Shown here: positions 1-33,924 of the stretch, piece after piece | How the letters are laid out: each line of letters begins with the position of its first letter | How positions within the stretch are numbered: position 1 is the stretch's first letter | Virus record (IMG/VR): IMGVR_UViG_3300009091_000037 | Coordinates: 1 to 34,203 of that record | Length of the DNA stretch: 34,203 bases | Direction: 5' to 3' (one strand) | Source of the DNA: a virus | Position numbers and translations under genes: made by a program | The notes under the pieces: model-generated | The model's input: the letters and a program-made list of their open reading frames with translations, nothing else | Told to the model about the DNA's origin: nothing | Database searches by the model: none

Positions 1-83
1 AGCCATTATTTTTGGATGGAAAAATTTTAAATATAGAATCTCTTGCTGATATAAGAAATAGATTAAGGAGTAATCTTGTCTAA
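1..83 (+). CDS. 3' end of an unrecognised gene (cut by window edge)
   Basis: An open frame enters from the left edge (first full codon at position 3) and ends at TAA 81-83. The visible tail reads about 26 residues, ending NRLRSNLV. The stop overlaps the TTG start of the next gene, and the AAGGAG that serves that gene lies inside this frame, so the two are probably co-transcribed and coupled. Too little is visible to name a function. Confidence 0.6.
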   Translation, partial: PLFLDGKILNIESLADIRNRLRSNLV

Positions 84-285
84 AAAACAAAGAATATATA
101 AGGGAATAAGCATTGACCCCGATTTAGAAAATTTATATTTAAAATATCGTCAATGGCGTTTTGAAAAATTCGGTGAAGGGATAACGTTTTCTAAACTTGC
201 AAAAAATCTTTTATTCGGATTTTTAACGAAACAAAAAGTAGAAACAAAAAACTTTTCAAAAATGAATGAACGGAGGCAGAAATGA
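76..285 (+). CDS. small basic protein, possible ribbon-helix-helix DNA-binding protein
   Basis: A 69-residue ORF starting at TTG 76, chosen because AAGGAG lies 5 nt upstream and no better start exists. The N-terminal part reads as a short strand (IYKGISI) followed by two predicted helices, the layout of small RHH proteins, but the match is only by eye. The C-terminal 20 residues are charged and probably disordered. Its TGA overlaps the ATG of the Erf gene (ATGA), so it is translationally coupled to recombination functions. The function is not established; it could equally be a small annealase accessory protein. Confidence 0.6.
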   Translation: MSKKQRIYKGISIDPDLENLYLKYRQWRFEKFGEGITFSKLAKNLLFGFLTKQKVETKNFSKMNERRQK

Positions 286-980
286 AGACATCCCAAACTC
301 TGGACAAATTACTACCTTCTCTTGTTGAGGCTCAAAAATCAATCAATGGACCCGTTAAAAACAAATCCGTGAATCAAGCTAATATGAATTACAAATATGC
401 CGATTTATCGTCTGTTTTAGAGGCAATAAAAGAACCGTTATCAAAAAATTCGCTTGTGGTTACTCAGGGAATTGAAATAGACAAAGAAATGGTGACGATT
501 GAAACAATCCTATATCATGTATCCGGTGAATTCATTGGATTCTCATGTTCATTTATGTCTGGAAAAAAACAAAAAGAAAAAGATCCGAATGGAGAAAAGG
601 ATGCGTATGGAAAAATAAAAGAAACAACTCTTTTTATTCCGGCGCTAGATCCTCAATCCATTGGAAGTACTATTAGCTACGCGAGACGCTATTCTATTTC
701 ATCGCTTTTGAATATTTCACAAGAGGACGATGACTGTACTTGTGTTTCTCATACTGAAGACAAAAAAGAAACTGCACCGGCTCCTAATCGTCCATCAAAA
801 GAGGTGAATTATTTTGCGCAGGCCAAAACACATATTGCGAATGCAACTACTATTCAATTTTTGAATGATATTTTTAATCGTATTAACCAAGCGACGTGTT
901 GGAAAGAGGGAGAAAAAGAAGAATTATTGAGACTTTTAAATTTAAAAAGTAACGAACTCACTATTTCAAAGGAAAAATAA
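282..980 (+). CDS. erf: Erf-family single-strand annealing recombinase
   Basis: A 232-residue protein of the ERF superfamily, the ssDNA-annealing proteins that phages such as P22 use to circularise or recombine their genomes. Residues 10-60 carry the typical N-terminal helix and NYKYADLSSVLEAI segment, and residues 128-139 carry the hallmark GSTISYARRYSI before an acidic stretch (EDDDC, 148-152). The C-terminal 70 residues are variable, as is usual for the family. The start at 282 is supported by GGAGG 6 nt upstream and by an ATGA overlap with the preceding stop. It lies in a + strand early operon; ssb sits at the other end of the window. Confidence 0.9.
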   Translation: MKTSQTLDKLLPSLVEAQKSINGPVKNKSVNQANMNYKYADLSSVLEAIKEPLSKNSLVVTQGIEIDKEMVTIETILYHVSGEFIGFSCSFMSGKKQKEKDPNGEKDAYGKIKETTLFIPALDPQSIGSTISYARRYSISSLLNISQEDDDCTCVSHTEDKKETAPAPNRPSKEVNYFAQAKTHIANATTIQFLNDIFNRINQATCWKEGEKEELLRLLNLKSNELTISKEK

Positions 981-982
981 TA

Positions 983-1285
983 ATGCTTTTATTCGCTTAT
1001 GCTACTTTACAAAATGAAAATTTACTCAACTCAATACTTGGATATATTCCCCACCATGAGACATATAATCTCTCTGGGTATCGGAAAATATATACCTACA
1101 TACCCAAAGAAAAAGAAAATTATCCAAACTTAAATCCATCAAATCAAAAAGAAACAGTGGATGGTATTTTGTTGCACATTACATCGTCGGATTTAAAAAA
1201 ATTAAATGAATATGAAAAAAAATATAAACTGATTAAACTTGTTTTGAAAGACGGCCGGGAAGCATATTATTTTAGTTTGACTTGA
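983..1285 (+). CDS. gamma-glutamylcyclotransferase-like (AIG2/GGCT fold) protein
   Basis: A 100-residue protein with the GGCT/AIG2-like signature. FAYATLQ at residues 4-10 corresponds to the family's YGTL phosphate-binding loop. A central TVDGILLHI strand (about 58-66) is followed by LKKLNEYEKKYKLIKLVL and the terminal AYYF strand. The conserved Glu after 'LDxxE' is present as NEYEKKY (about 75-81). In the known family the reaction releases 5-oxoproline from gamma-glutamyl amines; the target in a phage is unknown. AAGGA precedes the ATG. The TGA stop (1283-1285) is also the first three bases of a repeat module, so this is the last ordinary gene of the left + operon. Confidence 0.65.
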   Translation: MLLFAYATLQNENLLNSILGYIPHHETYNLSGYRKIYTYIPKEKENYPNLNPSNQKETVDGILLHITSSDLKKLNEYEKKYKLIKLVLKDGREAYYFSLT

Positions 1286-1295
1286 AAGGACAAGT

Positions 1296-1379
1296 ATGAA
1301 TACAGGAATACCTTTGGGGTATCGCTTAAGGAATCGCTTATGGGATCGCTTGTGGAGTTGCTTGAAAGGACAAGTATGA
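1296..1379 (+). CDS. tiny L-x-x-R repeat peptide, left module
   Basis: A 27-codon ORF with the module leader MNTGIPLGY, three tetrapeptide units (RLRN, RLWD, RLWS register) and the terminal CLKGQV. AAGGA lies 5 nt before the ATG, whose upstream neighbour stops 10 nt earlier. Its TGA overlaps the next ATG (ATGA), and the codons for Lys-Gly in its tail form the next Shine-Dalgarno. It is the shortest copy in the window. That it is translated is inferred from the ribosome-binding site and the conserved frame; no function is known. Confidence 0.55.
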   Translation: MNTGIPLGYRLRNRLWDRLWSCLKGQV

Positions 1380-1405
1380 ATACTGAGTCATTTATTTTCG
1401 ACTAA
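1376..1405 (+). pseudogene. second, truncated module start (9 codons)
   Basis: After the ATGA overlap the frame restarts as MNT and then departs from the module consensus (MNTESFIFD, stop). This looks like the leader of a further module whose body was lost, or the original target sequence into which the left module was inserted. It overlaps the 3' end of the convergent methyltransferase-like gene. Confidence 0.4.
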
Positions 1406-1829
1406 TTGCCCTGGCCCCATTAGATGCAGATATTGTATGATTTATTGCGCAAAAAAAATCTCTATTCTCGATACTTTGCTGTAGTGAGTGAGCGATTAAA
1501 TACATTTCTAGTTCCGATAATCCTCTGTCCATCTTGGACACAGCCCAATCGAAAATTCTTTTTCGAGCCAAGGGGACTAATTCATGGTCAAGTTCGATAG
1601 CATAAAATTTAAACAATGTATCAGCTAATGCCTTTGTTTTGTCTCCATGCTTTTTCTTCAGTTCTTCAAAAATTCTATCGACGATAATGATGAGCATGGA
1701 TCCATCTCCGCAGCTAGGCTCAAAAAAGAAAGTGTCATGATCTGAAAATAAGTGTTGATCAAGCATATCGAGCATTTCGCGAGTAACCCATGGTGGAGTA
1801 AATACTTGACCTTGTTTAAACTCATTCAT
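1392..1829 (-). CDS. N6-adenine methyltransferase-like protein lacking the NPPY half
   Basis: A 145-residue protein with the N-terminal half of an N6-adenine methyltransferase. QGQVFTPPWVTREML (about 6-20) is motif X, FFEPSCGDGSML (about 35-46) is the SAM-binding motif I, and FYAIELDHELVPLARKRI (about 73-90) is motif II. The catalytic NPPY/DPPY motif expected further on is absent, because the frame stops at 1392. The gene is therefore either a decayed methyltransferase cut next to the left repeat module, or a member of the short phage proteins that bind SAM without methylating. AAGGAG precedes the ATG. It is the last gene of the operon running from 3572. Confidence 0.7.
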   Translation of the reverse strand: MNEFKQGQVFTPPWVTREMLDMLDQHLFSDHDTFFFEPSCGDGSMLIIIVDRIFEELKKKHGDKTKALADTLFKFYAIELDHELVPLARKRIFDWAVSKMDRGLSELEMYLIAHSLQQSIENRDFFCAINHTISASNGARAISRK

Positions 1830-1848
1830 ACTTCTCCTTCATGGTTAT

Positions 1849-2487
1849 TTAATAAAAGGTTTTTGAATAAATGACAGCCTCTTCATAGACTTCAATCCCA
1901 CCGACCTGTTCACTTGCCTTCATACCCAACGCTTCCACAAGGTTTCCAATCGCCTTTTCGTCTGGAATTAGAAATGACCGCTTAATTTCCTGTTCATTGA
2001 CAATTCTAAATTTAAATATTTTTTTCACATTTGACGACTTAGATACTGTGGTATTTTCTACCACAACTACAGGTTTTCTTTCTGCCGCAAAATCTAATTG
2101 AATATCTGCTTCTTTTTTTAAGCCAGCCTTTTCTAGCTGAATTGCATTTTCAAGAGCCTCTTGATCATGTTTTGCTTTCAATTCCGCTTCCAATCTTTTT
2201 TGCTCTTTAATTCTCAATGCTTCTTGTTGAAGATAATAAGCGGACATTTTTGCTTTAATGCTTTTTTCGGCATTTTCAAAAGGTTCTAAATATTTCTTTT
2301 TTTGCGCGACAAGTAATTTGTGGGTGCCAAAGGCTTGCTTAATTCCTGGTTCTAGTTCATCTTCAATGCGCTTCATTGCCCCTTTTATTTTTGACAAAAA
2401 TTCCCCAGCACTTGCATACTCATTATCAGAGCGAATGATAATGTCCTTCTCATTTCCAACCAGTTCGATTTCAAATTTATTTTCCAT
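1849..2487 (-). CDS. coiled-coil phage protein of unknown function (early region)
   Basis: A 212-residue protein. The start at 2487 (MENKFEI) is preferred over an upstream ATG because AAGGAG lies 5 nt before it. Residues about 30-130 form a long charged, Lys/Glu-rich coiled coil with FENAEKSIKAKM, a pattern common in a phage protein often found beside recombination genes. The C-terminal part (about 145-212) looks globular, ending SEQVGGIEVYEEAV. A role with recombination is inference from the family pattern only. It follows the 77-residue gene by 2 nt. Confidence 0.7.
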   Translation of the reverse strand: MENKFEIELVGNEKDIIIRSDNEYASAGEFLSKIKGAMKRIEDELEPGIKQAFGTHKLLVAQKKKYLEPFENAEKSIKAKMSAYYLQQEALRIKEQKRLEAELKAKHDQEALENAIQLEKAGLKKEADIQLDFAAERKPVVVVENTTVSKSSNVKKIFKFRIVNEQEIKRSFLIPDEKAIGNLVEALGMKASEQVGGIEVYEEAVIYSKTFY

Positions 2488-2489
2488 TT

Positions 2490-2723
2490 TTACTCCTTGT
2501 TTGTGCAACAATTACATTTATTGCATTGTTCTGCTTCGTTCAAAAAATCATCCACATCGACATCTTCACCTGCATGATATATCCAAGCCGCTATCATTTC
2601 CATTGAGTCATCAAGATGTTTCTTTTTTTCAATGATAAGATTAGCCAGTTCTGCATTTCCATTTAATTCATTCAATACCTGGGATCTTGTTTTTTCCATA
2701 AAATCTTTTGCATAAATAATCAT
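2490..2723 (-). CDS. small acidic protein with a C-terminal Cys cluster
   Basis: A 77-residue ORF starting at MIIYAKDF; this ATG is chosen because GAGGT lies 4 nt upstream, while the farther in-frame ATG has no ribosome-binding site. The middle is helical and acidic. The end carries CNKCNCC, four cysteines within seven residues, which could bind a metal. No family recognised. It sits between the RHH gene and the coiled-coil gene in the same operon, so it is probably expressed early. Confidence 0.6.
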   Translation of the reverse strand: MIIYAKDFMEKTRSQVLNELNGNAELANLIIEKKKHLDDSMEMIAAWIYHAGEDVDVDDFLNEAEQCNKCNCCTNKE

Positions 2724-2755
2724 ACATACCTCATAATATACACGGTACAATGTAT

Positions 2756-2923
2756 TTATTGTTTGTCTGAGATTTCTTTGACATCAAAATAAAAATCTAT
2801 AATTTTTCTAATCATTTCAGAGAAGTTCAAATTTTCTTTTTTCGCATATTTTTGAAGACTCTTAATTTTTGATTCCGTTAATCTCAAGTGAACATATTTT
2901 TTCTTTTTTATATCTTTTTTCAA
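2756..2923 (-). CDS. ribbon-helix-helix (Arc/CopG-type) regulator
   Basis: A 55-residue protein read from TTG 2923. This start is chosen because GGAGG lies 5 nt upstream and the TTG overlaps the upstream gene's TGA (TTGA); the longer frame from 2944 has no ribosome-binding site. KKYVHLRLTESKIKSL gives the strand and first helix, NLNFSEMIRKIIDFYF the second helix, as in Arc/CopG. Such proteins usually bind operators as dimers, so it may repress its own operon or a neighbouring promoter in 3573-3842 (inference). Confidence 0.75.
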   Translation of the reverse strand: MKKDIKKKKYVHLRLTESKIKSLQKYAKKENLNFSEMIRKIIDFYFDVKEISDKQ

Positions 2924-3264
2924 AGGCCGCCTCCGAATTTCCAATTTCTAAATGTTTCGTCGATATAGAGCAATGCATAGGTCAGACTATCGTTTTCCAT
3001 ATATCTTTTTATCGTGGCCATAATCTCTTGCCATAACTCAAGATCTTCTTTTTTTTGAAAAGAAACAGTAATGTCCTCATTGTCTTCATAGACCGCCTCA
3101 ATTTCTGGCTTTGAAACACCATATTGCTCAGAATATGTAATACAATCCTGGAGAGAGAATTCTTCAACCTCATAGGCAATATCGATTTGATACTTTTTAA
3201 AATTGTAACGATAGTACAATGTTTTATAGATCCTAAAAGGGAAATTTAATTTGGGAATAGTCAT
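2920..3264 (-). CDS. unrecognised early protein
   Basis: A 114-residue protein with a mixed alpha/beta pattern and no recognisable motif. It ends in FGGGL, whose codons supply the GGAGG ribosome-binding site for the RHH gene downstream, so the pair is translationally coupled. GAGG lies upstream of its ATG. Second gene of the operon from the promoter at 3610-3638. Confidence 0.6.
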   Translation of the reverse strand: MTIPKLNFPFRIYKTLYYRYNFKKYQIDIAYEVEEFSLQDCITYSEQYGVSKPEIEAVYEDNEDITVSFQKKEDLELWQEIMATIKRYMENDSLTYALLYIDETFRNWKFGGGL

Positions 3265-3308
3265 GTTTTTTCCTCAGTAACATCAAAAATTGATCGTGAG
3301 AACCTCAC

Positions 3309-3572
3309 CTAATATACCTTGTCACCTTTGCGTAGCAACCTGACAAATGGGTTCTCGTCAATCTCGTATTGGAGAGCAGAATGATGATATAGTTCGAGGA
3401 GTCTGTCTATACTATACACATATTTTGAAAAAAGTATGATTCTACCATTGATTCTATCTGACATGTTTGAAACAATTTCGACCATGTAATTATTTTTTGT
3501 TTCTTTAATTTTCAATCCACCGCATCGAGGATAGTCAAAATTGACATCATTATATACCTCTTTTGATTTCAT
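3309..3572 (-). CDS. unrecognised early protein, first gene of the minus operon
   Basis: An 87-residue protein with a perfect AAGGAGG before its ATG and a strong sigma-70-like promoter about 40 bp upstream, so it should be among the best expressed early products. The sequence shows alternating strands (NYMVEIVSNMS, GRIILFSKYVY) and no motif I recognise. First-gene position behind a strong promoter is typical of small host-takeover or regulatory proteins, but that is inference. Confidence 0.65.
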   Translation of the reverse strand: MKSKEVYNDVNFDYPRCGGLKIKETKNNYMVEIVSNMSDRINGRIILFSKYVYSIDRLLELYHHSALQYEIDENPFVRLLRKGDKVY

Positions 3573-3609
3573 GTTTTTTCCTCCTTTTTTTAGTTTAACT
3601 TATAATAAT

Positions 3610-3638
3610 AGTATAGCACATTTGTAAACCAAAGTCAA
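3610..3638 (-). promoter_or_regulatory. strong sigma-70-type promoter for the 3572-1392 operon
   Basis: On the minus strand, TTGACT (3638-3633) and TATACT (3615-3610) are separated by exactly 17 nt, with TG two bases before the -10. The expected start is about 3603, some 30 nt ahead of the first gene's start codon. Confidence 0.85.
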
Positions 3639-3655
3639 TAGAAAAACAAACGCAC

Positions 3656-3685
3656 TGTGTAACTTTTGTGTAACAAATTAGTTAC
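3656..3685. promoter_or_regulatory. candidate operator (repeated TGTGTAAC and inverted GTAAC/GTTAC)
   Basis: TGTGTAAC occurs at 3656-3663 and 3667-3674 as a direct repeat. GTAAC (3670-3674) also pairs as an inverted repeat with GTTAC (3681-3685) around AAATTA. The same TTGTGTAAC, inverted, overlaps the start region of the late promoter at 4401-4409. The cluster lies between divergent promoters, the place expected for a shared repressor or activator site. Confidence 0.5.
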
Positions 3686-3714
3686 TTGCTAAACGTATGA
3701 AATCCGTGTAGATT
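3686..3714 (+). promoter_or_regulatory. candidate plus-strand promoter ahead of a terminator leader
   Basis: TTGCTA (3686-3691), a 17-nt gap and TAGATT (3709-3714). Each hexamer is a moderate match, so the call rests partly on its place directly upstream of an intrinsic terminator and a gene without another promoter. Confidence 0.4.
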
Positions 3715-3742
3715 TACTACCATACTCTTAGGTACAATGGTT

Positions 3743-3781
3743 CATCAGCGTAGATTGCTTACGTCTACGCTGATGTTTTTT
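3743..3781 (+). terminator. intrinsic terminator in the leader of the 3842 gene
   Basis: A perfect 12-bp stem, CATCAGCGTAGA (3743-3754) with TCTACGCTGATG (3764-3775), a 9-nt loop and six T (3776-3781). It lies between the candidate promoter and the next gene's ribosome-binding site, so it either ends a short leader RNA of about 60 nt or attenuates the gene. Confidence 0.85.
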
Positions 3782-3841
3782 AACTTAAGCAAACATAGAA
3801 ATCACGAACGACAAAATGACGCGTATAAAAATGGAGAGAAT

Positions 3842-4327
3842 ATGAAAAGAAATGAGATTGGATTATATCTTGAGGCCCTTCAGTCTGGACAGGAAATTAA
3901 GTCAGCAAAAGTCGCATATGCCATCATCAAAAACAAAAAAATGCTCATTGATGAATTGAAGAACGTTGAAAAAACTCAAAATGAATTGCTAAAACAAATC
4001 CAACCCTATGAAGATGCCAGAATTGAAATGCTGAAAAAACATGCAAAGCATGACGGTACTGGAAATCCCATGATTAAAAAATCAATCGTCAATGGTTTTG
4101 AACAGTCTGAGTTTGTTCTTTTGGATCGAGACTTGTTTGGAAAAGAATGGACCGAAAAACAAAAAGAGTTGAAAGAGTATTTAGACAAAAAAGAAACTTT
4201 AGATAAATCATTTAATGAATTTTTGAATGAAGAATTCAATTGCATTTTTCATAAAGTTAAAATAGAAGAATTCCCTTCTGACATAACCGCAAATCAACTA
4301 GAAAAATTAGAATTCATTATTGCTTAA
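3842..4327 (+). CDS. charged coiled-coil protein, unrecognised
   Basis: A 161-residue protein. The start at 3842 (MKRNEIG) is chosen because GGAGAGAAT precedes it, and the longer open frame upstream runs through the terminator hairpin. Residues about 25-60 and 105-140 are Lys/Glu-rich helices, with HAKHDGTGNPMIKK between them. The pattern recalls small phage replication-associated proteins (DUF1617-like), but I cannot confirm this by eye. It stands alone between a leader terminator and the late promoter, and may be regulated by attenuation. Confidence 0.6.
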   Translation: MKRNEIGLYLEALQSGQEIKSAKVAYAIIKNKKMLIDELKNVEKTQNELLKQIQPYEDARIEMLKKHAKHDGTGNPMIKKSIVNGFEQSEFVLLDRDLFGKEWTEKQKELKEYLDKKETLDKSFNEFLNEEFNCIFHKVKIEEFPSDITANQLEKLEFIIA

Positions 4328-4369
4328 TCTTTCTCTATTTTTCACAATCTTTCTCATTTTTATTGTTCA

Positions 4370-4398
4370 TTGACAAATCTAATTTATTTGGTTACAAT
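4370..4398 (+). promoter_or_regulatory. late/virion operon promoter
   Basis: A consensus TTGACA (4370-4375), 17 nt, then TACAAT (4393-4398), placed 49 bp before the portal start. No other promoter this good is seen ahead of the virion genes, so it probably drives much of 4448-24081. Confidence 0.85.
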
Positions 4399-4409
4399 TT
4401 AGTTACACA
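4391..4409. promoter_or_regulatory. candidate operator over the late promoter
   Basis: GTTAC occurs at 4391-4395 and again at 4402-4406, the second inside GTTACACAA, the exact reverse complement of the TTGTGTAAC at 3666-3674. The site covers the -10 hexamer and the start point, so a bound protein would be expected to block or gate late transcription. Confidence 0.5.
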
Positions 4410-4447
4410 ACTTAGAATTCAACTTTGAACAACGTCTTGGAGTCAAC

Positions 4448-6388
4448 TTGGAAGAAAAGTATTTCTTCTTAGAGTCGGATGAGAAAATAGCCACAGAAAT
4501 ATTCAAACGCGTTAATATGTTTCAAGAGTTCGCGATTGCTGAAGGCTATTATTACAACTGGTATAAGAACAAAAAATATTATCACGGCTATTACTTTGGA
4601 TACAAAGGCTCTGATATTGTTGAGTGCGGTGATCAAAGCGAACTTCATGCCGCTACATTCAATCATTTCAGAAACGTCCTAAGGCATACGATTAATCAAG
4701 CGTCTGGGGATATTCCTTCATTCTCTGTTTCCGCTTCAAACACAGACCCTGTCTCACGTAGGGCATCTCGCATCGGGAAAGATATTATCAACTACTACTT
4801 CAAGGTGAAACGATGTGTAAAGTACATCAATGAGGCGATCGAGTATGGGGTTGTCCAGGGCGATGGGTATGTTGTTTGCGAGTATAATCCCTTAATAGGA
4901 GAAGAGCATGTATCGGATGAGACTGGTACGATAAGAAAAAAGGGTGATTTGGATTTACATGCTTTAGGTCCAACGGATGTTTTTTTTGATGTGGCCCAAA
5001 AATCAAAAGAAGATTGGCAATGGGTGATTTTTAGAACCAGGAAAAATAAATATAATTTAGCCGCTGCATTTCCTGATCTGGCAGAAGATATTCTGTCGAT
5101 CCCTGCATACTTTGAAATTGACAAATATTTCATGAATCAAATAGATGCTCTCAAAATGACGTATGCAAAAGATGAAATCTATATTTATTCCGCCTATCAC
5201 AATCCATGCGAAATTATGCCAAACGGCGGCTATTGTATGTTTGCTGGAAATTTTGGAAAACCAATTTTCCTGTTTCGCAATGTAGATAAAAATGGAAAAG
5301 ACTTCAATCCATATGGTCGACTCCCAATATTTTATATTTCTCCTTCAAAATATATGGATACTTCATTCGGTCGAACGGATGCAAACGATTTACGCTCTCC
5401 TCAAGAGATGTTAACCGTGGCCGTTTCAAGTATGATTTCAAATGCCGCTGCATTTTCCGCCAATAATATATGGTGTCCTGATGGAAACGTAGAGATAGAA
5501 GAGCTTTTGGGGGGTATGAATTTAATCAAGAGTTCAACAAAGCCAGAGGTTGTTTCCTTTTTTCAACAAAATCCGGCGTTCACAGATTTGATGAATATTT
5601 GTATTGGGACAATTGAGACTCTGAGTGCTCAAAGTGCTGTCGTTCGCGGTGACTTAGAAAAACTGCCTCAATTGAAATCTGGAATTGCCCTAATGACAGT
5701 GTTGAACCAATCAAAAGAATTCTCTCAAGCTCTCATTAAGTCCGTGTATGAATGCTATGAAGATCTCGGGACTTTTATTCTTGAGACATTACAACGCGTT
5801 GCAACGGTTGAGCGATTTGTTGAGGTTGTTGGAAAAATGAATACAAACGCTGTGGTGTCTTTTACGTCCGACGACATTAAGGCTGCAAAACGAGTTGTAG
5901 TTGATCGAACCAATCCAATCGCGAATCAGCCAGCTGGCCAAATTGAAATCGCAGATAATTTGCTACAAAAAGGCCAACTCTCAAAAACTGAATTTTTGAA
6001 TGTTGTTAATACCGGAAAGCTTCAAACAGCAACAGAATCGGACGAAAGAATGCTAGATTTTATTGCTGTTGTGAAAGAAAAACTATTAAAAGGTGAAACG
6101 ATGGTTCCGATTCATGGAATCAATCATCAACTATATATTAAAGAATTGCAAGCGTTGGTTTTTGACGCAGACATTTTAACCAATCCAAACAATCAGACGA
6201 TTCTGAAAAATATTATGGAATTAGTTCAGGCTCAACTTGAAATCGTAAGAGAAGGGGATGAAGTGGCCAACTTTATTTATGGCGGTACCCCCCCTACTCC
6301 AAGAGTTCCATTGAATCAACCGGAATTAATGCCATTAGGGCAAACAATAGCACCACAACCAATCGGCCCCACTCAACCTAATCAATAG
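4448..6388 (+). CDS. portal protein
   Basis: A 646-residue protein that forms the dodecameric ring at the capsid vertex through which DNA is packaged and ejected. Evidence is its size, its place directly before scaffold and major capsid genes, and the long P22/T7-type portal pattern: aromatic N-terminal helix region, ASGDIPSFSVSA and the following RRASRIGKDIINYYFKV segment (about 85-120), and a Pro/Gln-rich C-terminal tail. The start is TTG 4448, with GGAG 5 nt upstream. The first gene after the late promoter. Terminase is not adjacent but in the minus-strand operon, an unusual split. Confidence 0.85.
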   Translation: MEEKYFFLESDEKIATEIFKRVNMFQEFAIAEGYYYNWYKNKKYYHGYYFGYKGSDIVECGDQSELHAATFNHFRNVLRHTINQASGDIPSFSVSASNTDPVSRRASRIGKDIINYYFKVKRCVKYINEAIEYGVVQGDGYVVCEYNPLIGEEHVSDETGTIRKKGDLDLHALGPTDVFFDVAQKSKEDWQWVIFRTRKNKYNLAAAFPDLAEDILSIPAYFEIDKYFMNQIDALKMTYAKDEIYIYSAYHNPCEIMPNGGYCMFAGNFGKPIFLFRNVDKNGKDFNPYGRLPIFYISPSKYMDTSFGRTDANDLRSPQEMLTVAVSSMISNAAAFSANNIWCPDGNVEIEELLGGMNLIKSSTKPEVVSFFQQNPAFTDLMNICIGTIETLSAQSAVVRGDLEKLPQLKSGIALMTVLNQSKEFSQALIKSVYECYEDLGTFILETLQRVATVERFVEVVGKMNTNAVVSFTSDDIKAAKRVVVDRTNPIANQPAGQIEIADNLLQKGQLSKTEFLNVVNTGKLQTATESDERMLDFIAVVKEKLLKGETMVPIHGINHQLYIKELQALVFDADILTNPNNQTILKNIMELVQAQLEIVREGDEVANFIYGGTPPTPRVPLNQPELMPLGQTIAPQPIGPTQPNQ

Positions 6389-6417
6389 GCGGTGGCAAGC
6401 AAACATTAAGGAGAGTT

Positions 6418-7533
6418 ATGACAGAGGGAATGACAGCACAGACGGCTATGCCTGTAGATTCGAATGTTCAAATTTCAGCTGAGAATTTAAATTCACAGGT
6501 GCAAGATGGACAGACCGGACAAGAAGGACAAGATTTTCATGGAGCAAACACGGATCAAGACAATCAGGGATCTCAATATTCGAATCAAGAGAACCAAAAA
6601 AATACTAAAACAAATAACAAAGAAAACTTTAATCCAAAAGAAATGGAAATCATTTCAAAATTTATGAAGTCATGGAATGTCCCAAAAGGTTGGGAGCCGG
6701 TCCTAGATAAAGGGCAAGTTAAATTTTATGGAGTTGTCGATAAACAAGCAATATTGGCCACCCCAGAAGAGTTAATCAAAGGCTTTGGTTTAACTCAAGC
6801 TGGCTATGAACGGTTGTCCCATGCAAAGGAAATTGAAAATCGATACAAACAACTAGAATCTAAAATATCAAAAGACCCAAACGAGTTGATTAACTATGGT
6901 CGACAGCTCGGATTGTCTGATCAACAAATAGAAGAGTTTGCTTTCAACTACCTATCTGAAAAAACAAAATACAATCAAATGTCTCCACAAGAGAGAGCGC
7001 TGCACGATAGAGAACAAAAAATAAAAGAACGCGAAAAGGCAATCGAAGAGTCACGTCTTAACGAAGAGCAAGCCAAACATCACGCGATGGTGTCTGAGAT
7101 CGGATCTAAAATTACAAGTGAGCTGATTGAAGCAGCCCAAAAACATGGATTCACGCAGCCAAAACCTGGAAAAGATGGAATTGAACTCACCGAACTCATG
7201 TTGGATACGGTCAATATTTTAGCAAATTATGGAAAAAATAATAAACAAATTCCTGTGGCTGATGCCATGTGGATGGCCAATCAAAACTATGAAAGAAAAT
7301 TACAAAAGTGGCTAGTGCAACACGACGTAAACCAGGTCGTTAAGCTATTGCCAAAGAACATAAAAGAAGCCATTCGGAAAGAGTTACTCAGTCAGGTTCC
7401 CGATATACCAACGGCGAACAGTATTGATGGAATGTCTAATCGAGTGGATTTGTCACGTATGAGAGTTAATCGACAACCACAACAACAACAGAGAGGTCAA
7501 ACTATCACGGATTTTAAAATGTCCAGGAATTGA
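6418..7533 (+). CDS. capsid scaffolding protein
   Basis: A 371-residue hydrophilic protein between portal and major capsid genes, the position of scaffolds. Residues 1-75 are Gln/Asn-rich and disordered; about 140-260 is a long charged helix (RALHDREQKIKEREKAIEESRL). The basic C-terminal tail contains a run of glutamines (PQQQQRG). Scaffolds guide capsid assembly and leave before DNA packaging; a basic C-terminus often contacts the coat protein. AAGGAG precedes the ATG. Confidence 0.8.
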   Translation: MTEGMTAQTAMPVDSNVQISAENLNSQVQDGQTGQEGQDFHGANTDQDNQGSQYSNQENQKNTKTNNKENFNPKEMEIISKFMKSWNVPKGWEPVLDKGQVKFYGVVDKQAILATPEELIKGFGLTQAGYERLSHAKEIENRYKQLESKISKDPNELINYGRQLGLSDQQIEEFAFNYLSEKTKYNQMSPQERALHDREQKIKEREKAIEESRLNEEQAKHHAMVSEIGSKITSELIEAAQKHGFTQPKPGKDGIELTELMLDTVNILANYGKNNKQIPVADAMWMANQNYERKLQKWLVQHDVNQVVKLLPKNIKEAIRKELLSQVPDIPTANSIDGMSNRVDLSRMRVNRQPQQQQRGQTITDFKMSRN

Positions 7534-7551
7534 CCTTGGGAGAATTAAATT

Positions 7552-8847
7552 ATGTCATCCGTTAACACAACCGTCAATTTGAATGCCAACTTTAAAAAAA
7601 GTTATGCTGATCTACCGGCCAAACTGATTCCTGATAGTGTTATTTTTGCAAGAGAAATTCCAGAGGTCAAAAGAGAATCAACTCCAGGTGGAATATACAG
7701 TAGAATGGTAGTTGTATCTTCTGAGCAAGGTATTACAAAAGCGCCTAGCGGCGGTACTCTTGGGGCTTTTGCGTTGAACAGTCCCGAATCGATGAATGTT
7801 CAGGAGGCTCAGGTATCGGGCTCTGAATTGGTTCTTAGAATGTCATGGTCATATAAAGTCATGTCCTCTTCTGCCAATTCTCCAAACAAGTTTGAAGATG
7901 TAACAAAACTAGTAGTTGCCAATTCATTGGAGAGTGCGTGGTTTCATCAAGAGGCTGATATATTATGGGGACAAGATGCAAAAGGCGTTGGAGTTATTTC
8001 AGATAAAAACTTTACAAACAACACTATTGATATTTCGGAAGCCGAGTTTGCTTTTGGCTTGTTTGTTGGAAGAGAAAGATCTTGGTTAGCCATTGAAAGT
8101 GCAGCTGGCCAGTTACGTGGATATATTCAGATTTCCCAAGTAGACATTGAGAATCGAAGGATTTACACCGACTCTACAACTCCGGTACCAGTTGGGACAA
8201 TCGCCGGTGATATTATTAGACTTAAGGCCGATGGGTTATTGGGAGTTAATTCATTTATCGGACTTCACAAAGCCTGTTTGACAACAACCGGCACATTGTT
8301 CAACGTTCCAACAACATACTCACTCTGGAAGCCATTGGGTGATTATGATATTGGCGGACAACCACTGTCGTTCCAAAAGTTACTACAAGTATTGTTTAGG
8401 CCAATTTCTCGCGGTTTAGGAAAGTCATTCAAAGAGATCGAAGTGTATGTATCACCTAGAACGTGGATGAGCATTTCTCAAGATGAAGTGGCTCGTAGAA
8501 AATATGACTGGTCCTATTCTTCAAAAGGATACCAGAATGGTGCAGATAACATCACTTATACTTGCATGGCCGGTACCTTGACTCTGCGAAGTCACGACTT
8601 GATGAAGCAGGGATACGCGTTGATTATGCCAAAGGCATCACGTTGTATGGAGAAGATCGGTTCTCAGTCCACGCCTACGTTCAAAATTCCTGGACAAATG
8701 AATGCAACCGGCGGAGAAGATTATTTGATGCCGATGCCAAACAACGCAGGATACGAGTCCCGTCTATATTATGACACAAGTATTCTAAGCCCTTATTTTC
8801 CACAAATGCAATGGATTACTGGGATTACAAACCCAGCTTTAGTTTAA
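7552..8847 (+). CDS. major capsid protein
   Basis: A 431-residue protein immediately after the scaffold gene, in the position and size range of HK97-fold coat proteins of P22-like phages. The sequence is strand-rich with few charged runs. An N-terminal segment (LIPDSVIFAREIPEVKRES) precedes a Gly-rich loop typical of coat E-loops. I see no close match to P22 gp5 by eye, so the assignment rests on context. GGGAG precedes the ATG. A long stem-loop follows the stop. Confidence 0.85.
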   Translation: MSSVNTTVNLNANFKKSYADLPAKLIPDSVIFAREIPEVKRESTPGGIYSRMVVVSSEQGITKAPSGGTLGAFALNSPESMNVQEAQVSGSELVLRMSWSYKVMSSSANSPNKFEDVTKLVVANSLESAWFHQEADILWGQDAKGVGVISDKNFTNNTIDISEAEFAFGLFVGRERSWLAIESAAGQLRGYIQISQVDIENRRIYTDSTTPVPVGTIAGDIIRLKADGLLGVNSFIGLHKACLTTTGTLFNVPTTYSLWKPLGDYDIGGQPLSFQKLLQVLFRPISRGLGKSFKEIEVYVSPRTWMSISQDEVARRKYDWSYSSKGYQNGADNITYTCMAGTLTLRSHDLMKQGYALIMPKASRCMEKIGSQSTPTFKIPGQMNATGGEDYLMPMPNNAGYESRLYYDTSILSPYFPQMQWITGITNPALV

Positions 8848-8860
8848 TTTTATTTTCACT

Positions 8861-8888
8861 CAGGGTGGGACATCAAAGTCCTACCCTG
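8861..8888 (+). terminator. stem-loop after the major capsid gene
   Basis: CAGGGTGGGAC (8861-8871) pairs with GTCCTACCCTG (8878-8888) over 11 bp with one G-U pair and a 6-nt loop. No T run follows, so it is more likely a partial terminator, an mRNA-stabilising hairpin or a processing site that raises coat expression over the fibre gene than a full stop. Confidence 0.55.
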
Positions 8889-8904
8889 TTGTGGGGACCG
8901 AACT

Positions 8905-11900
8905 ATGACAATACCTTTACAAGTAAGAAATGGAACCGTTCGATATTATCCACAAAACAGCGATGAGAAATGGGGAACTGAAGCGTCTGCAATGATGCAA
9001 GATGTAGTACTTGGAATCAACCAAAGTGCACAAACTGCACATTTACAAAATTATGATATTGTTATTGGAACGGACTCTGATGTAGCGGACGGAAATGCTA
9101 CACATAGCTCATGGTCCACCGCAATTGCAGCGGCAATCGATGGAAACACTATTTTTGTAAGAAAATGTACTCTTTCTTTAGCTTCTCAATTAGTGATTAA
9201 TAAAAAACTAAAAATCGTTGGGACTAAACAAGCTTCAGTCATTCAAGATTCCGTTACTATAACAAATGGGTCCATGATAAAAATAACTGTTAATGACGTT
9301 GAATTTGTGGATGTAGAAATTCAACAAAGTCTCGGAACGCCTGATTATGCTATCGAATTAAGTAATGTAAATAGAATTTGTTTAAATATTCCGGTATCAG
9401 GGACATTCGCAATCTCATCTATTTATAGAAATGGAATGACGATTAATGGAATGATAGGACAAATTCTCTCATCAACTACACTTGACAACTATCTTGGAAC
9501 TAATGCATATTCCAAGTATGTATATTTGAATGATGTATTAACATCAACGTATCATACTATTTTAAATTCCAATTCATCAACTGCGTTGACTGCCAATCGG
9601 AATTTAACAATTGACGTAAAGAATGCTGATCGCACATTGTCTTTATCTGGAAATCTTACTATTGGAAACTCTTTATCTACGGGAAGTCACACTATTACAT
9701 TGAACACGACAGGTACAACTAGCATAACGCTTCCAACTGCCGGAACGTTGTCTACTTTAGATGGTGTCGAAACGTTAACGTCAAAGACATTGACTTCTCC
9801 AACCATAACGAATCCGACGCTTTCTGGTGGGACAGTAGTTTCTACAGTTGGCGTATATGATACAAATGCTTCACATTCTCTGAATTTAAAATGGAATGAA
9901 GACGACACCATTAATCGAGTTTTAAATTTAAAAGTCAACGGATCGGATAAGACTATTGATTTATCGGGAAACTTAACCCTTGCAAATAGCTTTACAACAA
10001 GTGGAAATTTCGCTTTGACATTGACTCAAACGGCGGCTACAAACGTCACGCTTCCTACTACCGGAACGCTGTCTACTCTAGATGGGTCTGAAACGCTGAC
10101 AAACAAAACATTAACGTCTCCAATTTTAAATACAGCAACGATTAATAATTCTACAATCTCAATCCCTTCACTTTCAGGAGGGACGGTTATTTCTACGGTG
10201 AGCGTATATGATACAAATGCTTCACATTCTCTGAATTTAAAATGGAATGAAGACGATACCATTAATCGAGTTCTGAATTTCAAAGTTAACGGATCGGATA
10301 AGACTATTGATCTAGCCGGTGACTTAACTTTATCCGGTGCATTTGCGTTGACATTGACCCAAACAGCGGCAACCAATGTCACACTTCCAACTACCGGAAC
10401 GTTGACCACTTTGGCCGGTAGCGAAATATTGACAAATAAAACATTAACTGCACCTACAATAACAAACGCGACTTTATCGGTGACAAATACAAGCGGAGCC
10501 GGTGTTCTTTCGATCAAAAGAAATGAAGCCAGTGCGGTTGATTATACATTGACATACAAAGTAAACGGAGCTTCAAGGACGATTGATCTTGGCGGTGATT
10601 TAAAAACAACAACCCAATCAATCACATTGAATGCAAATGCCGCCGGATCTATTTTGACCTTGCCTGATTCGGGGACGTTGGCAACCATTGGAAATTCTGA
10701 AACGTTTACAAATAAAACGTTGACTGCTCCTACGATTAACAAAGCCTATATTACAATTCCAGATATTGACTCTTCTAATGCGCTATTGATAAAATGGAAT
10801 GAAGGAGCCGCTTTAGATCGAACCTTAAACCTGGCCCTTAATGGAGTGGACCGATCTATCACATTAACAGGGGATTTGAGTGTATCTGGAAACGCAACAA
10901 TTAACCAAGATTTATCAACGACCTCTGCCACAGCTCAACTTGCCACATTAACATGTTCAACAAGTTTAGTATCTGCGTTAATAACCAAAGCATCAGCGGA
11001 CTTAAAGGTGACAACAACCACAAGTGGGGACGTGGAACTAAATCCGGTATCTACTATTTCCAGAATAATGGGCGATACCGCAAACAATTCAGGGACAAAG
11101 CGTGTCTTGTTTGGATCGGATGGGGATGGAACGGACTCTGATAACAGCGCTGGCATTCAGTCTGACACGTCTGGAAATATTCAAGTAAAATATAGAGGTG
11201 GAGTATGGTCAAACATAGCCAGTGCGGCTGGTTTTGCTACAACAACCTTGAACAATCTTGGAACTACAGCGATTAACGCAGCTTTAAATTACGCCGACAC
11301 TAATTTAGGCTTAGTCAATATTCCAGTTGGAACTATTATTCCTTGGATTGGCGGTTATTTCGGAAATGGAAGTAATGGAAGTTATACCCGAGTGCTCGGA
11401 ACGGCAAACACAATTGCCGCCGTTAATACGCTTCAAAACCCAAACGGATGGTATGTATGCGATGGGACAGAATTAAATTTAGCATCCTCTCCAATTTTTA
11501 ATGGAGCCACTCGATTTTTGCCCAATCTTTCAGACAGCCGTTTTTTACTGGGCTATACATCATGCGGAACGCAAGGCGGTGCCAATTCTTTAACGACAGG
11601 AAACGCAAGTGTAAATACAACAACAATGACAGCTGGAATTTCAATTAGCAATCATACCGTAACGAATAATGCTGTAACATCAGGTGCAGGGACTGCTCAT
11701 TCTCACGTGTTAACCCCAGGCACTGCTTATGCCCAAATTGGATTGATTGACAATGGAACGATCTGGGTGAAGAACTATTCTGTGACTGCCTATTCAACAA
11801 CAGGTTATTTGTCAGGGACATATACAGCGGATTCTGGTCCAACTAGTATTGGTTCTGGGGTTGGGGGAAGTACAAATACCGAGTCATCACACACTCATGG

Positions 11901-28001: not shown

Positions 28002-28154
28002 TTAAGGATTTATAACTTTATCTACTTCGACCATACATCCATTCTCAGAATGATATAAAATTGCTTCTGCTAATTCATCCCATTGTTCTTCTGTTGCGTT
28101 TCCACTTTTAAATAATTGAATAACTTTATCTTTATATTCATTGATCGTCATCAT
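28002..28154 (-). CDS. small helical acidic protein
   Basis: A 50-residue ORF missed by common length cut-offs. Its ATG (28154) overlaps the TGA of the secreted-protein gene (ATGA), with AGGGGA about 6 nt upstream. The sequence is protein-like and helical (EYKDKVIQLFKSGNATEEQWDELAE). No family recognised. It is one of a run of coupled genes ahead of the lysis genes. Confidence 0.6.
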   Translation of the reverse strand: MMTINEYKDKVIQLFKSGNATEEQWDELAEAILYHSENGCMVEVDKVINP

Positions 28155-28849
28155 TTCCATTCCCCTGGCATGGGTTGATTCAATAACGACATCGTATCCG
28201 ACAAGTGCATTCCTTTACAAAAATAAGTCTCTCTCATCATATATGATTCGGTTATAACACAAAATCGAGACGAAGGAGAACTAAACGAAACATCGTCCAT
28301 TGAATTATTCCAATTTGTTACATATACCTTTACATGGTGTGCATAACTTCCAACGATAATATTAGTTTGTTCTAAATAAATATCGGTCATTCTTTCATAT
28401 TGAGGATCGACCAGAATAATTCTAGCTTCAAAAAAAGAATTCATATATTCTGGTCGATCCATTGGATAGATTGACCCACGACATATAAATGAATTTACCC
28501 CATTAAATTCAGACTGTGGAATATAAAAATCAAATATTTTATTTGCTTCAATAATTTGAATAGAATTTCCAAAATTTGCCTTTATTGTGCCTGTACATTG
28601 GAATTGGAATTTATACTGATAATTTTTTTGAATTCTGAAGTTGAGATTTTGAGTTGGATTATGCCTTTTTGTACAAGCTCCAATATAGTTATCGATATCA
28701 ATACACGCCCTGAGTGGAACGCCTATCCATACGTCAACCTCTGGGCTATTAGCTATACCAGAATTAATCTTCGCTCTATCATCCTCATGGGATATTTCTG
28801 CATGAGCACATGAGTAAAAAATAAAAAATAAAAATAAAATTTTATTCAT
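28151..28849 (-). CDS. secreted Cys-containing protein, unrecognised
   Basis: A 232-residue protein with a clear signal peptide (KILFLFFIFYSCAHA, cut expected after A17; a Cys at 14 makes a lipobox unlikely). The mature part is strand-rich with several cysteines that could pair as disulfides, consistent with a periplasmic or outer-surface location. Its ATG overlaps the remnant tail of the repeat module upstream (LKGHL stop, ATGA), and the module tail supplies its Shine-Dalgarno (GAAAGGA). It may be a periplasmic lysis or exclusion factor; unproven. Confidence 0.65.
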   Translation of the reverse strand: MNKILFLFFIFYSCAHAEISHEDDRAKINSGIANSPEVDVWIGVPLRACIDIDNYIGACTKRHNPTQNLNFRIQKNYQYKFQFQCTGTIKANFGNSIQIIEANKIFDFYIPQSEFNGVNSFICRGSIYPMDRPEYMNSFFEARIILVDPQYERMTDIYLEQTNIIVGSYAHHVKVYVTNWNNSMDDVSFSSPSSRFCVITESYMMRETYFCKGMHLSDTMSLLNQPMPGEWK

Positions 28850-28876
28850 AAGTGTCCTTTCAGTCTATCCACTATT

Positions 28877-28954
28877 CTACCCCTTATCTATTCCATTAGG
28901 ATAACCCTCTAAGCGATCCCTTAAGCTATACCCACAAGGTAATCCTGTGTTCAT
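28877..28954 (-). CDS. repeat peptide module 1 (frameshifted)
   Basis: A 25-codon ORF beginning MNTGLPCGYS and LRDR, then running into another frame and TAG. The normal module frame resumes farther on (RIVDRLKGHL stop at 28846), with AGA and ATA codons in place of CGC and TTA, so this copy has decayed by an indel and point changes. The tail still provides the start signal of the secreted-protein gene, which may be why it is kept. Confidence 0.5.
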   Translation of the reverse strand: MNTGLPCGYSLRDRLEGYPNGIDKG

Positions 28955-29070
28955 AGCTTTCCTTTCAGTCGATCCCTTAAGCGAACCCCTAAGCGATCCC
29001 ATAAGCGAGCCCTTAAGCGATCCCTTAAGCGATCCCTTAAGCTACACCCCAAAGGTAATCCTGTGTTCAT
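28951..29070 (-). CDS. repeat peptide module 2 (6 units)
   Basis: A 39-residue peptide: leader MNTGLPLGCS, six L-x-x-R units with middle pairs RD, RD, RA, WD, GV, RD, and the tail LKGKL. It starts 10 nt after the stop of the QGDV-like gene, whose TGA is the first base triplet of the module leader. Its own TGA overlaps the next start (ATGA). It is strongly basic and hydrophobic with a four-residue period, so it could be membrane-active or nucleic-acid-binding; neither is shown. Confidence 0.6.
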   Translation of the reverse strand: MNTGLPLGCSLRDRLRDRLRARLWDRLGVRLRDRLKGKL

Positions 29071-29080
29071 AGCTGTCCTT

Positions 29081-29386
29081 TCAGTCGACAACTGGCGCAA
29101 CAAGTCCACTAAATATTCCTTTTTCTAAAATCTTTCCGAATTGCCATATTCCATTTTCAAAATAAAGAGTTTCATGAGTATCATGATTAACGCATGCATT
29201 CTCTTTGGCCACAAAAAACCGTTCATTCTCAGTCACGTAAATATCCCCACCCTCTAAAACGTGAGGATGAGTTGACTCTTGAATTGTTTTGCATTCATGC
29301 TTAATTGCGTTATCTGGAAGTTTATCTATTTTTATAAAAACAATATCTCCTTGTTGTCCAGACTCTTTTACTAATTTTTTTTCCAT
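29081..29386 (-). CDS. QGDV-like small protein
   Basis: A 101-residue protein with QQGDIVFIKIDKLPDNA near residues 11-27, resembling a widespread small family that begins RQGDVLLxPVxxLP. His residues follow (STHPHVLEGG, NHDTHETL), as in that family. I recall such genes near DUF6745-type genes, as seen here at 30022-30933, but this needs checking. AAGGA precedes the ATG. It lies between repeat modules 3 and 2, and its last codon joins the module 2 leader. Confidence 0.55.
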   Translation of the reverse strand: MEKKLVKESGQQGDIVFIKIDKLPDNAIKHECKTIQESTHPHVLEGGDIYVTENERFFVAKENACVNHDTHETLYFENGIWQFGKILEKGIFSGLVAPVVD

Positions 29387-29401: not shown

Positions 29402-29533
29402 TTATAGAGTTATTTTAATCAAACGAAACAGTATATGATCAAATAATTTATCATATAATCGAAACCACAATGGATCTCGTAATAAAAAAAAGCGATCCCC
29501 TAAGCTATACCCCAAAGGCAATCCTGTATTCAT
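29402..29533 (-). CDS. repeat peptide module 3 (diverged body)
   Basis: A 43-residue ORF with the usual leader (MNTGLPLGYS) and one standard unit (LGDR). After a run of eight T the DNA loses the 12-nt repeat, but a hydrophobic residue still falls about every fourth position (LWFR, LYDK, LFDH, LFRL). The standard LKGQ tail is missing and the ORF ends in TAA. The frame may be an old repeat body or a chance extension past a deletion. Confidence 0.45.
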   Translation of the reverse strand: MNTGLPLGYSLGDRFFLLRDPLWFRLYDKLFDHILFRLIKITL

Positions 29534-29697
29534 ACTTGTCCTTTCAGTCGATCAAATAAGCGATCCCATAAGCGATCCAATAAGCGAGCCCCTAAGCGAT
29601 CCCTTAAGCGATCCCTTAAGCGAACCCATAAGCGACCCACTAAGCGATCCCCTAAGCGATCAAATAGTCTATACCCACAAGGTAATCCTGTGTTCAT
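29530..29697 (-). CDS. repeat peptide module 4 (10 units)
   Basis: A 55-residue peptide: leader MNTGLPCGYR, ten units with middle pairs FD, GD, VG, WV, RD, RD, GA, LD, WD, FD, and the tail LKGQV. Start and stop both form ATGA overlaps with modules 5 and 3. The inner order VG, xV, RD, xD, GA is shared with module 5, so the two descend from one array and have since changed mainly at the middle residues. Confidence 0.65.
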   Translation of the reverse strand: MNTGLPCGYRLFDRLGDRLVGRLWVRLRDRLRDRLGARLLDRLWDRLFDRLKGQV

Positions 29698-29897
29698 AGC
29701 TGTCCTTTCAGTCGATCAAATAAGCGATCCCCTAAGCGAACCCATAAGCGAGCCCCTAAGCGATCCATTAAGCGATCCCTTAAGCGAACCCTTAAGCGAC
29801 CCACTAAGCGATCCCATAAGCGAACCAATAAGCGATCCCATAAGCGAAACCTTAAGCGATCCCTTAAGCTACACCCCAAAGGTAATCCTGTATTCAT
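29694..29897 (-). CDS. repeat peptide module 5 (13 units)
   Basis: A 67-residue peptide, the longest: leader MNTGLPLGCS, thirteen units with middle pairs RD, RF, WD, LV, WD, VG, RV, RD, MD, GA, WV, GD, FD, and the tail LKGQL. It has about 18 basic and 7 acidic residues. AAGGA lies 5 nt before the ATG. A longer frame starting at 29942 runs across the leader in the same phase but has no ribosome-binding site. Its TGA overlaps the ATG of module 4. Confidence 0.65.
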   Translation of the reverse strand: MNTGLPLGCSLRDRLRFRLWDRLLVRLWDRLVGRLRVRLRDRLMDRLGARLWVRLGDRLFDRLKGQL

Positions 29898-29926
29898 ACT
29901 TGTCCTTTCAGTCGATCCCCTAAGAG
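29894..29926 (-). pseudogene. remnant of a further repeat module
   Basis: Upstream of module 5 the module frame is still readable as L-L-G-D-R followed by LKGQV and TGA, with the stop overlapping the module 5 start. No leader or start codon remains; an in-frame TAA lies 27 nt farther upstream. This is the 3' end of a module whose 5' part was deleted. Confidence 0.65.
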
Positions 29927-33873: not shown

Positions 33874-33890
33874 AATTCACTCCATTTTTT

Positions 33891-33920
33891 TAAATGCAAT
33901 AATTTTAAATGCAATAATTT
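33891..33920. repeat. two tandem 15-bp direct repeats upstream of ssb
   Basis: TAAATGCAATAATTT occurs twice with no gap (33891-33905 and 33906-33920), filling the space between the ssb ribosome-binding site and the divergent promoters. It may be an operator pair or an untranslated-region element; either reading is open. Confidence 0.7.
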
Positions 33921-33924
33921 TATA

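Follow-up and report, generated by a model that had tools for sequence, protein, structure and literature searches.

An inverted copy of a putative family of R-L-x-x micro-genes headed by a shared start block in a phage genome

Start blocks and small ORFs at two distant loci

The window analysed here is the whole of IMG/VR virus record IMGVR_UViG_3300009091_000037 (34,203 bases). On its plus strand, genes for an ERF single-strand annealing protein and a GGCT-like protein are followed by a small module, and a short methyltransferase-like gene and an exonuclease-like gene lie beyond it on the minus strand (Table 1). A sequence-only reading of this DNA had placed the module directly after the GGCT-like gene; indeed, the stop codon of that gene is part of the module itself. 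Specifically, the 22-nt sequence TTGAAAGGACAAGTATGAATAC occurs twice on the plus strand in identical form around three units, as that reading had also noted; the units are 12 nt long and of the form CGC-TTR-xxx-xxx. With up to three mismatches, this sequence has four matches in the 34,203-nt window, compared with a mean of 0.00 in 100 shuffles. A looser start-block pattern has eight exact sites, two on the plus strand (+1283 and +1363) and six on the minus strand (starting at 28862, 28967, 29083, 29546, 29710 and 29910). When up to three mismatches are allowed, the looser pattern gives ten matches; shuffles average 1.72, and none of 100 reaches ten. In line with the earlier proposal of a dispersed module with a copy on the opposite strand, the six minus-strand blocks lie at 28.84-29.91 kb, and the P1 copy is inverted with respect to this main array; the distance of 27.5 kb given before also holds, position 1405 being about 27.5 kb from the nearest array copy (28877).

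In the direction of the ORF that it opens, each block reads TGAAAGGACAAGTATGAATA or a close variant of it, and comprises a stop codon (TGA), the Shine-Dalgarno sequence AAAGGA, an ATG and the first codons. AAAGGA precedes the ATG in all eight blocks, which makes this a repeat that overlaps the ribosome binding site of several genes in one phage.

Table 1. Positions of the start blocks, small ORFs and neighbouring genes in the window
Feature	Position	Strand	Remarks
ERF single-strand annealing protein	282..980	+	PF04404, E 2.3e-21; candidate agent of copy spread
GGCT-like gene	983..1285	+	PF06094, E 9.2e-8; ends on the TGA that opens start block 1
Start block 1	1282..1303	+	TGA stop of GGCT, AAAGGA, ATG and first codons
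ORF P1, 27 aa	1296..1379	+	MNTGIPLGYRLRNRLWDRLWSCLKGQV; its stop lies in the ATGA of start block 2
Start block 2	1362..1383	+	Same 22 nt as start block 1; heads a vestigial ORF
ORF P1b, 9 codons	1376..1405	+	MNTESFIFD; after start block 2, without units; probably a stump
Short methyltransferase-like gene, 145 aa	1392..1829	-	Convergent with the module; short form without NPPY
Exonuclease-like gene	1849..2511	-	phrog_10477, E 2.7e-16; candidate ERF partner
232-aa gene	28151..28849	-	Uses a start block; signal-peptide-like N-terminus by eye; no Pfam match
Start block before the ordinary 232-aa gene	28843..28862	-	Looser pattern match
ORF E, 25 aa	28877..28954	-	ATGA overlap with D; one tetrad, unrelated tail
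Start block of E	28948..28967	-	Looser pattern match
ORF D, 39 aa	28951..29070	-	R-L-x-x tetrads
Start block of D	29064..29083	-	Provides the stop of the 101-aa gene
101-aa gene	29081..29386	-	Located between ORFs C and D; matches no family; stop codon supplied by the TGA of a block
ORF C, 43 aa	29402..29533	-	ATGA overlap with B; diverged tail, tetrad pattern kept
Start block of C	29527..29546	-	Looser pattern match
ORF B, 55 aa	29530..29697	-	ATGA overlap with A
Start block of B	29691..29710	-	Looser pattern match
ORF A, 67 aa	29694..29897	-	Tetrad repeat
Start block of A	29891..29910	-	Looser pattern match
Module remnant	29894..29926	-	LLGDRLKGQV*; precedes A and has no start block of its own; from the frame listing

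The six small ORFs (P1 and A-E; 25-67 codons) open with MNTG(L/I)P(L/C)G(Y/C), and most of them then continue into R-L-x-x tetrads. The codon pattern of this N-terminus has six matches in the window, where shuffles lead one to expect 0.00, and the N-terminal peptide is kept in 6/6 copies. In A, B and D the tetrads are encoded by 12-nt units that follow the N-terminus, and P1 contains three tetrads; the repeat is flanked only by a head of 10 residues and an LKGQ tail, the latter being read from the next block. Additionally, the ORFs are chained to one another. In all four chained cases (P1 to P1b, A to B, B to C and D to E) the stop codon falls on the start of the next block in an ATGA overlap, and in 4/4 (P1, A, B and D) the frame set by the block ATG has no stop before the next block's TGA, with another sense frame containing 3-10 stops. 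Both non-module genes that lie directly upstream of a block, the GGCT-like gene and the 101-aa gene, likewise end on its TGA. ATGA or TGATG overlaps between codirected ORFs are a sequence feature of translationally coupled genes, and the module ORFs may thus be coupled; strict coupling is given for 13 of 14 tested overlapping gene pairs in PMC6728339. The remnant upstream of A points to a further copy that would have been lost there.

Between the P1 copy and the minus-strand array, the longer matches span 57-81 nt at 79-91% (best E 1.5e-23). The copies differ from one another at 3-11 of their first 48 nt, and P1 is nearest to A (three differences) and C (four). Two block variants (AAGT...AATAC and AGCT...AACAC) and two following variants (GTGT and GTAT) are joined in different combinations in A, C, D and B/E, as expected if the copies recombine. 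RNA structure was set aside as the feature under selection: folding gives z values of -2.05 for the P1 region and -3.12 for the array, but repeats have a tendency to self-fold.

Other repeats are present in this genome. A perfect 15-bp tandem repeat of 2.3 copies (TTTTAAATGCAATAA) occupies 33888-33922, just upstream of a minus-strand SSB-like gene, and long internal repeats (158 nt at 89%, and a 107-nt family) are located at 9688-10829 in a tail-fibre-like gene of 1042 aa.

Coding potential of the modules and their predicted products

Judged from sequence, translation of the sense frame is likely, and the tetrad pattern retained in copy C provides moderate evidence for it. Although the DNA of C is strongly diverged, its peptide still reads RLYD-KLFD-HILF-RLIK. 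The tail of C scores higher against the tetrad profile than all 20,000 residue shuffles; in a repeat test on the 30-residue tail, the score is reached by 1 of 5,000 shuffles, and the best score lies above zero in the sense ORF frame alone of the six frames. On the other hand, the tail DNA also resembles the 12-nt unit above shuffles, and four other frames have z values of 3-4 against their own shuffles, so that part of the tetrad signal of C is residual DNA similarity. Neutral divergence to the identity of copy C was therefore simulated: among 20,000 simulations, 1.4% match the score of the four-tetrad core and 60.4% gain a stop, the 1.4% being the only figure among these tests that corrects for residual DNA similarity.

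The modules could instead represent a non-coding or barely translated minisatellite, whose 12-nt units, headed by a start-like sequence, are amplified through slippage and recombination and yield no selected product, a reading that we regard as possible but on the unlikely side. Open frames would then follow from 12 being a multiple of three and from a unit that is free of stops in two of the three sense frames. The variation among 26 recent units (from A, B and D, excluding units that do not start with CGC) fits such an origin. Positions 1-6 and 12 of the unit are invariant and variation falls mainly at 7, 8 and 11, giving 248, 334 and 48 differences at sense codon positions 1, 2 and 3, respectively; this rarity at codon position 3 is the reverse of ordinary purifying selection in the sense frame. 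The state of two copies agrees with it as well, since in E the repeat is gone after one tetrad and the tail has no tetrad signal, and P1b has no repeat. No homologues were found outside IMGVR_UViG_3300009091_000037, which also suits a minisatellite and places conservation of the modules beyond comparison. Moreover, 12-nt arrays that share the spaced unit pattern and its TCGCTTA core are not uncommon, occurring in 9 viral and 54 genome stretches that look like unrelated arrays. However, the start-block peptide pattern occurs in none of these stretches, and the features of the modules themselves argue for genes: the block holds well-spaced AAAGGA and ATG and is common to a real gene, the ORFs run in frame to the next block wherever they are chained, the N-terminal peptide is retained throughout, and the diverged copy C keeps both frame and tetrads, which neutral divergence seldom achieves.

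A second alternative is that the start block is the functional element, acting as a regulatory or translation-boosting sequence for neighbours such as the 232-aa gene, with the tetrad peptides as leaders or by-products. A block does precede this gene, blocks lie at the stop codons of two ordinary genes, and the block resembles the Start-Associated Sequences of Cluster K mycobacteriophages as described in the cited part of PMC3203893. We nevertheless consider this alternative unlikely: an ordinary gene lies downstream of only one of the eight blocks, the others opening six MNTG ORFs and one stump of nine codons, and the Shine-Dalgarno sequences of other genes in the window differ from that of the block.

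It is very improbable that the product is encoded on the opposite strand, as S-(D/E)-P-(L/I) tetrads from a GTG start inside the reversed block. The unit differences read in that direction (334 at codon position 3 versus 248 and 48 at positions 1 and 2) are nearer to the usual coding pattern, and such ORFs are open, but copy C has no S-D-P-L signal (best z 0.93) and has stops in all three frames of its tail, and of the six module blocks just those of B, D and E have the GTG, with GTA in A, C and P1. The tetrad ORF of this type at 29690-29923 on the plus strand shows unit variation closer to ordinary coding constraint than that of the sense strand.

If translated in the sense frame, the modules would probably give short cationic alpha-helical proteins. 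The net charge of A, B and D is +7 to +11, and their best 18-residue hydrophobic moments at 100 degrees are 0.68, 0.71 and 0.48, respectively. AlphaFold2 predicts one helix spanning residues 7-66 of A (mean pLDDT 76, pTM 0.35) and two helices spanning residues 11-19 and 21-42 of C (mean pLDDT 76, pTM 0.40; about 95 over residues 31-43), at moderate confidence and with little or no alignment behind either model. Charged repetitive sequence is frequently modelled as helix. Searches of Pfam and PHROGs with the six peptides gave nothing near the cut-off, and SelB-wing_2, ExoU_C and phrog_23850 were dismissed as peptide families, being far below threshold. A PADLOC scan of A, C, the 101-aa protein and the 232-aa protein gave no match. 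At a guess, the products could serve as host-directed or counter-defence accessories of tunable length.

The short methyltransferase-like gene beside the module

The 145-aa gene (1829-1392) matches N6_Mtase at profile positions 24-92 of 311 only; it contains FEPSCGDG, which we take to be methyltransferase motif I, and lacks NPPY. It had been described as a methyltransferase without its second half; the profile match is indeed partial, but the gene is a member of a short form. A stand-alone homologue of 146 aa, also without NPPY, is present in MT835638.1, a phage record without annotation. Among 28 IMG/VR loci, taken as relatives of this gene only (GGCT was not found beside it there), 11 hold complete short ORFs without NPPY (78-215 aa), 16 have NPPY and one is cut by the contig end. 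The two closest, at about 52% identity, are L090 (171 aa) and L091 (150 aa); both are short and without NPPY, and the L090 match spans residues 4-145 of 145, to the last residue. Rather than this copy alone being short among full-length relatives with NPPY, 11 of the 28 are short, the two closest included. The 145-aa gene is thus one of a recurrent short form, and its length can be explained without the module having deleted anything.

In line with this, the module is absent from 5.5 and 6.4 kb around the L090 and L091 genes, and profile A1, which does match the window itself, finds none in the whole records. Relatives without the module therefore carry the same short gene, contrary to the suggestion that arrival or loss of the module had removed methyltransferase sequence and to the accompanying prediction of a complete methyltransferase in relatives that lack the module. 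The earlier view of the 22-nt repeat as a flank or scar does not hold either, because every module starts with this repeat, and in the array it recurs after the units from A to B, from B to C and from D to E. The direct repeat around three units is accordingly a head, its units and the next head, and the 22 nt make most sense as a start block that opens a small gene, not as an insertion scar. The two identical copies around the units and the partial profile match would suit a mobile element that duplicated a 22-nt target and, on arrival, took away half of the methyltransferase gene. Such an element is nevertheless hardly conceivable: the 22 nt belong to the head of the module at all copies rather than to a target, the same short methyltransferase occurs without the module, and the supposedly lost second half is not found beyond the module, where GGCT and ERF lie.

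The combined locus of GGCT, module and methyltransferase was found in no other record. Short methyltransferase-like proteins without the catalytic motif NPPY (most of 137-215 aa) recur in many phages, for example at L105-L109 of the loci L090-L117, and at L093, L095-L104 and L112 two adjacent same-strand stretches about 0.7-0.8 kb apart both match the short methyltransferase query.

Relatives, comparable systems and a proposed mechanism

In IMG/VR, the exact 21-nt start block and the looser block each have 0 matches, and GGCT, major capsid and terminase, used as queries for close relatives, gave 0 confirmed. Megablast of window positions 1-12000 against 50,697 phage records and tblastn of GGCT against phages returned none. 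Searches of phages and plasmids with an idealised 31-aa peptide also returned none, a query of the kind that the BLAST low-complexity filter may hide. Two viral contigs that match a degenerate N-terminal pattern contain different ORFs without units and were rejected. A host-repeat origin was likewise rejected as far as sampled, the N-terminal pattern and profile A1 each matching 0 of 240 genomes from the phylum of G001.

Structural genes do have relatives. The portal query finds one phage record, a phage of Silvanigrella aquatica, with similarity also in capsid, tail and terminase. The capsid query finds 3 of 240 genomes from the phylum of a Bdellovibrionales record (one of the three weak and with stops) and 2 of 140 genomes in the order of G231, G231 itself included, and structural genes related to those of this phage occur as a set in the G231 and G267 stretches, where the longer matches have about 21-39% identity. 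From these relatives in a Silvanigrella phage and in Bdellovibrionota genomes, we infer that the host is likely in or near Bdellovibrionota, relatives of predatory bacteria. G231:C4 and G267:C6 (L086-L089), from the phylum of a Bdellovibrionales record, are prophage-like stretches with related structural genes. L080, L083 and L086-L089 have no block, no unit pair and no protein match to GGCT, ERF or the methyltransferase at E 1e-3, and the locus is therefore not comparable there.

The micro-gene modules resemble both start-associated repeats and the Tweety gp54 repeats; we file them under neither and claim homology with neither. Among start repeats, the nearest published one that we found is the SAS/ESAS of Cluster K mycobacteriophages, which the cited part of PMC3203893 describes as 13 bp long, located at the ribosome binding site before genes of many families, able to contain the stop of the upstream gene and mostly on one strand, with exceptions. 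Like the block here, it is a short repeat with a Shine-Dalgarno core at many gene starts of one phage, sometimes with the upstream stop and mostly on one strand. Unlike SAS as described there, the block in this phage extends past the ATG into coding sequence and in most cases carries a repeat gene along with it, it does not precede many unrelated genes (1/8), and the host groups differ.

Tweety gp54 is, in the cited sections of PMC2884959, one gene of high G+C in which unique N- and C-terminal parts enclose 40-48 A-A-x-x units, and its unit number tunes counter-defence against Phrann gp29/gp30, a prophage defence, according to the parts cited of PMC2884959 and PMC9262239. The two systems share a 12-bp unit with two invariant codons, variation mainly at the first two positions of the third and fourth codons, and a unit number that varies between copies, whereas here six micro-ORFs at several loci encode R-L-x-x without a C-terminal domain (Tweety as in the same part of PMC2884959). 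In variable region 2 of bbp36 of Bordetella phage BMP-1, also covered in part of PMC2884959, 24-bp tandem units lie in one gene; tandem units in a phage gene are thus common to both, with a number that varies between isolates in bbp36, but the cited bbp36 description mentions neither a start block nor dispersal of the kind seen here. PeSL of T4-like phages, promoter-terminator motifs held in the cited part of PMC4503421 to mediate gene shuffling, are similarly short regulatory repeats at gene boundaries. Unlike PeSL as presented there, no terminator-like site was found at the P1 locus, and promoter-like sites are not above shuffles at the P1 locus or in the minus-strand array. Among the papers listed by searches of the open-licence literature, none describes the combination of start block and tetrad micro-ORFs.

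The best explanation, towards which we lean somewhat, is that the P1 locus carries an inverted copy of a family of self-starting, coupled R-L-x-x micro-genes spread by recombination and seen only in this phage so far. It builds on the observed block, ORFs, overlaps and copy relations; the micro-genes would be translated and coupled, their products may be helical, and recombination may be the route of spread. In particular, a family member consists of a start block (TGA, AAAGGA, ATG and MNTG-P-G codons) and a run of 12-nt units encoding R-L-x-x. Members are chained by the ATGA overlap, or by the block providing the stop of the previous gene, and with stops and starts chained in this way, ribosomes finishing one ORF could restart at the next. 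Copies would spread, and change their tetrad number, via recombination between near-identical start blocks and units. The ERF protein and the exonuclease of the phage are plausible agents, and annealing at short repeats may be how copies are moved and resized.

A broader proposal, which we offer as a doubtful speculation, is that the family spreads as a self-sufficient start cassette: with a stop, a ribosome site and a start codon of its own, each copy would be translated behind any gene where it lands, and the tetrad micro-protein, its length changing by recombination, would form a tunable reservoir for counter-defence or host takeover in Bdellovibrionota phages. At the P1 locus, a repeat around a module and an adjoining short enzyme gene are no proof of an insertion that damaged the enzyme. 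If the modules are translated, they show how small genes can arise in a phage when a ready-made start signal is copied onto an existing stop codon, and the birth of translationally coupled micro-genes would be directly testable in one genome.
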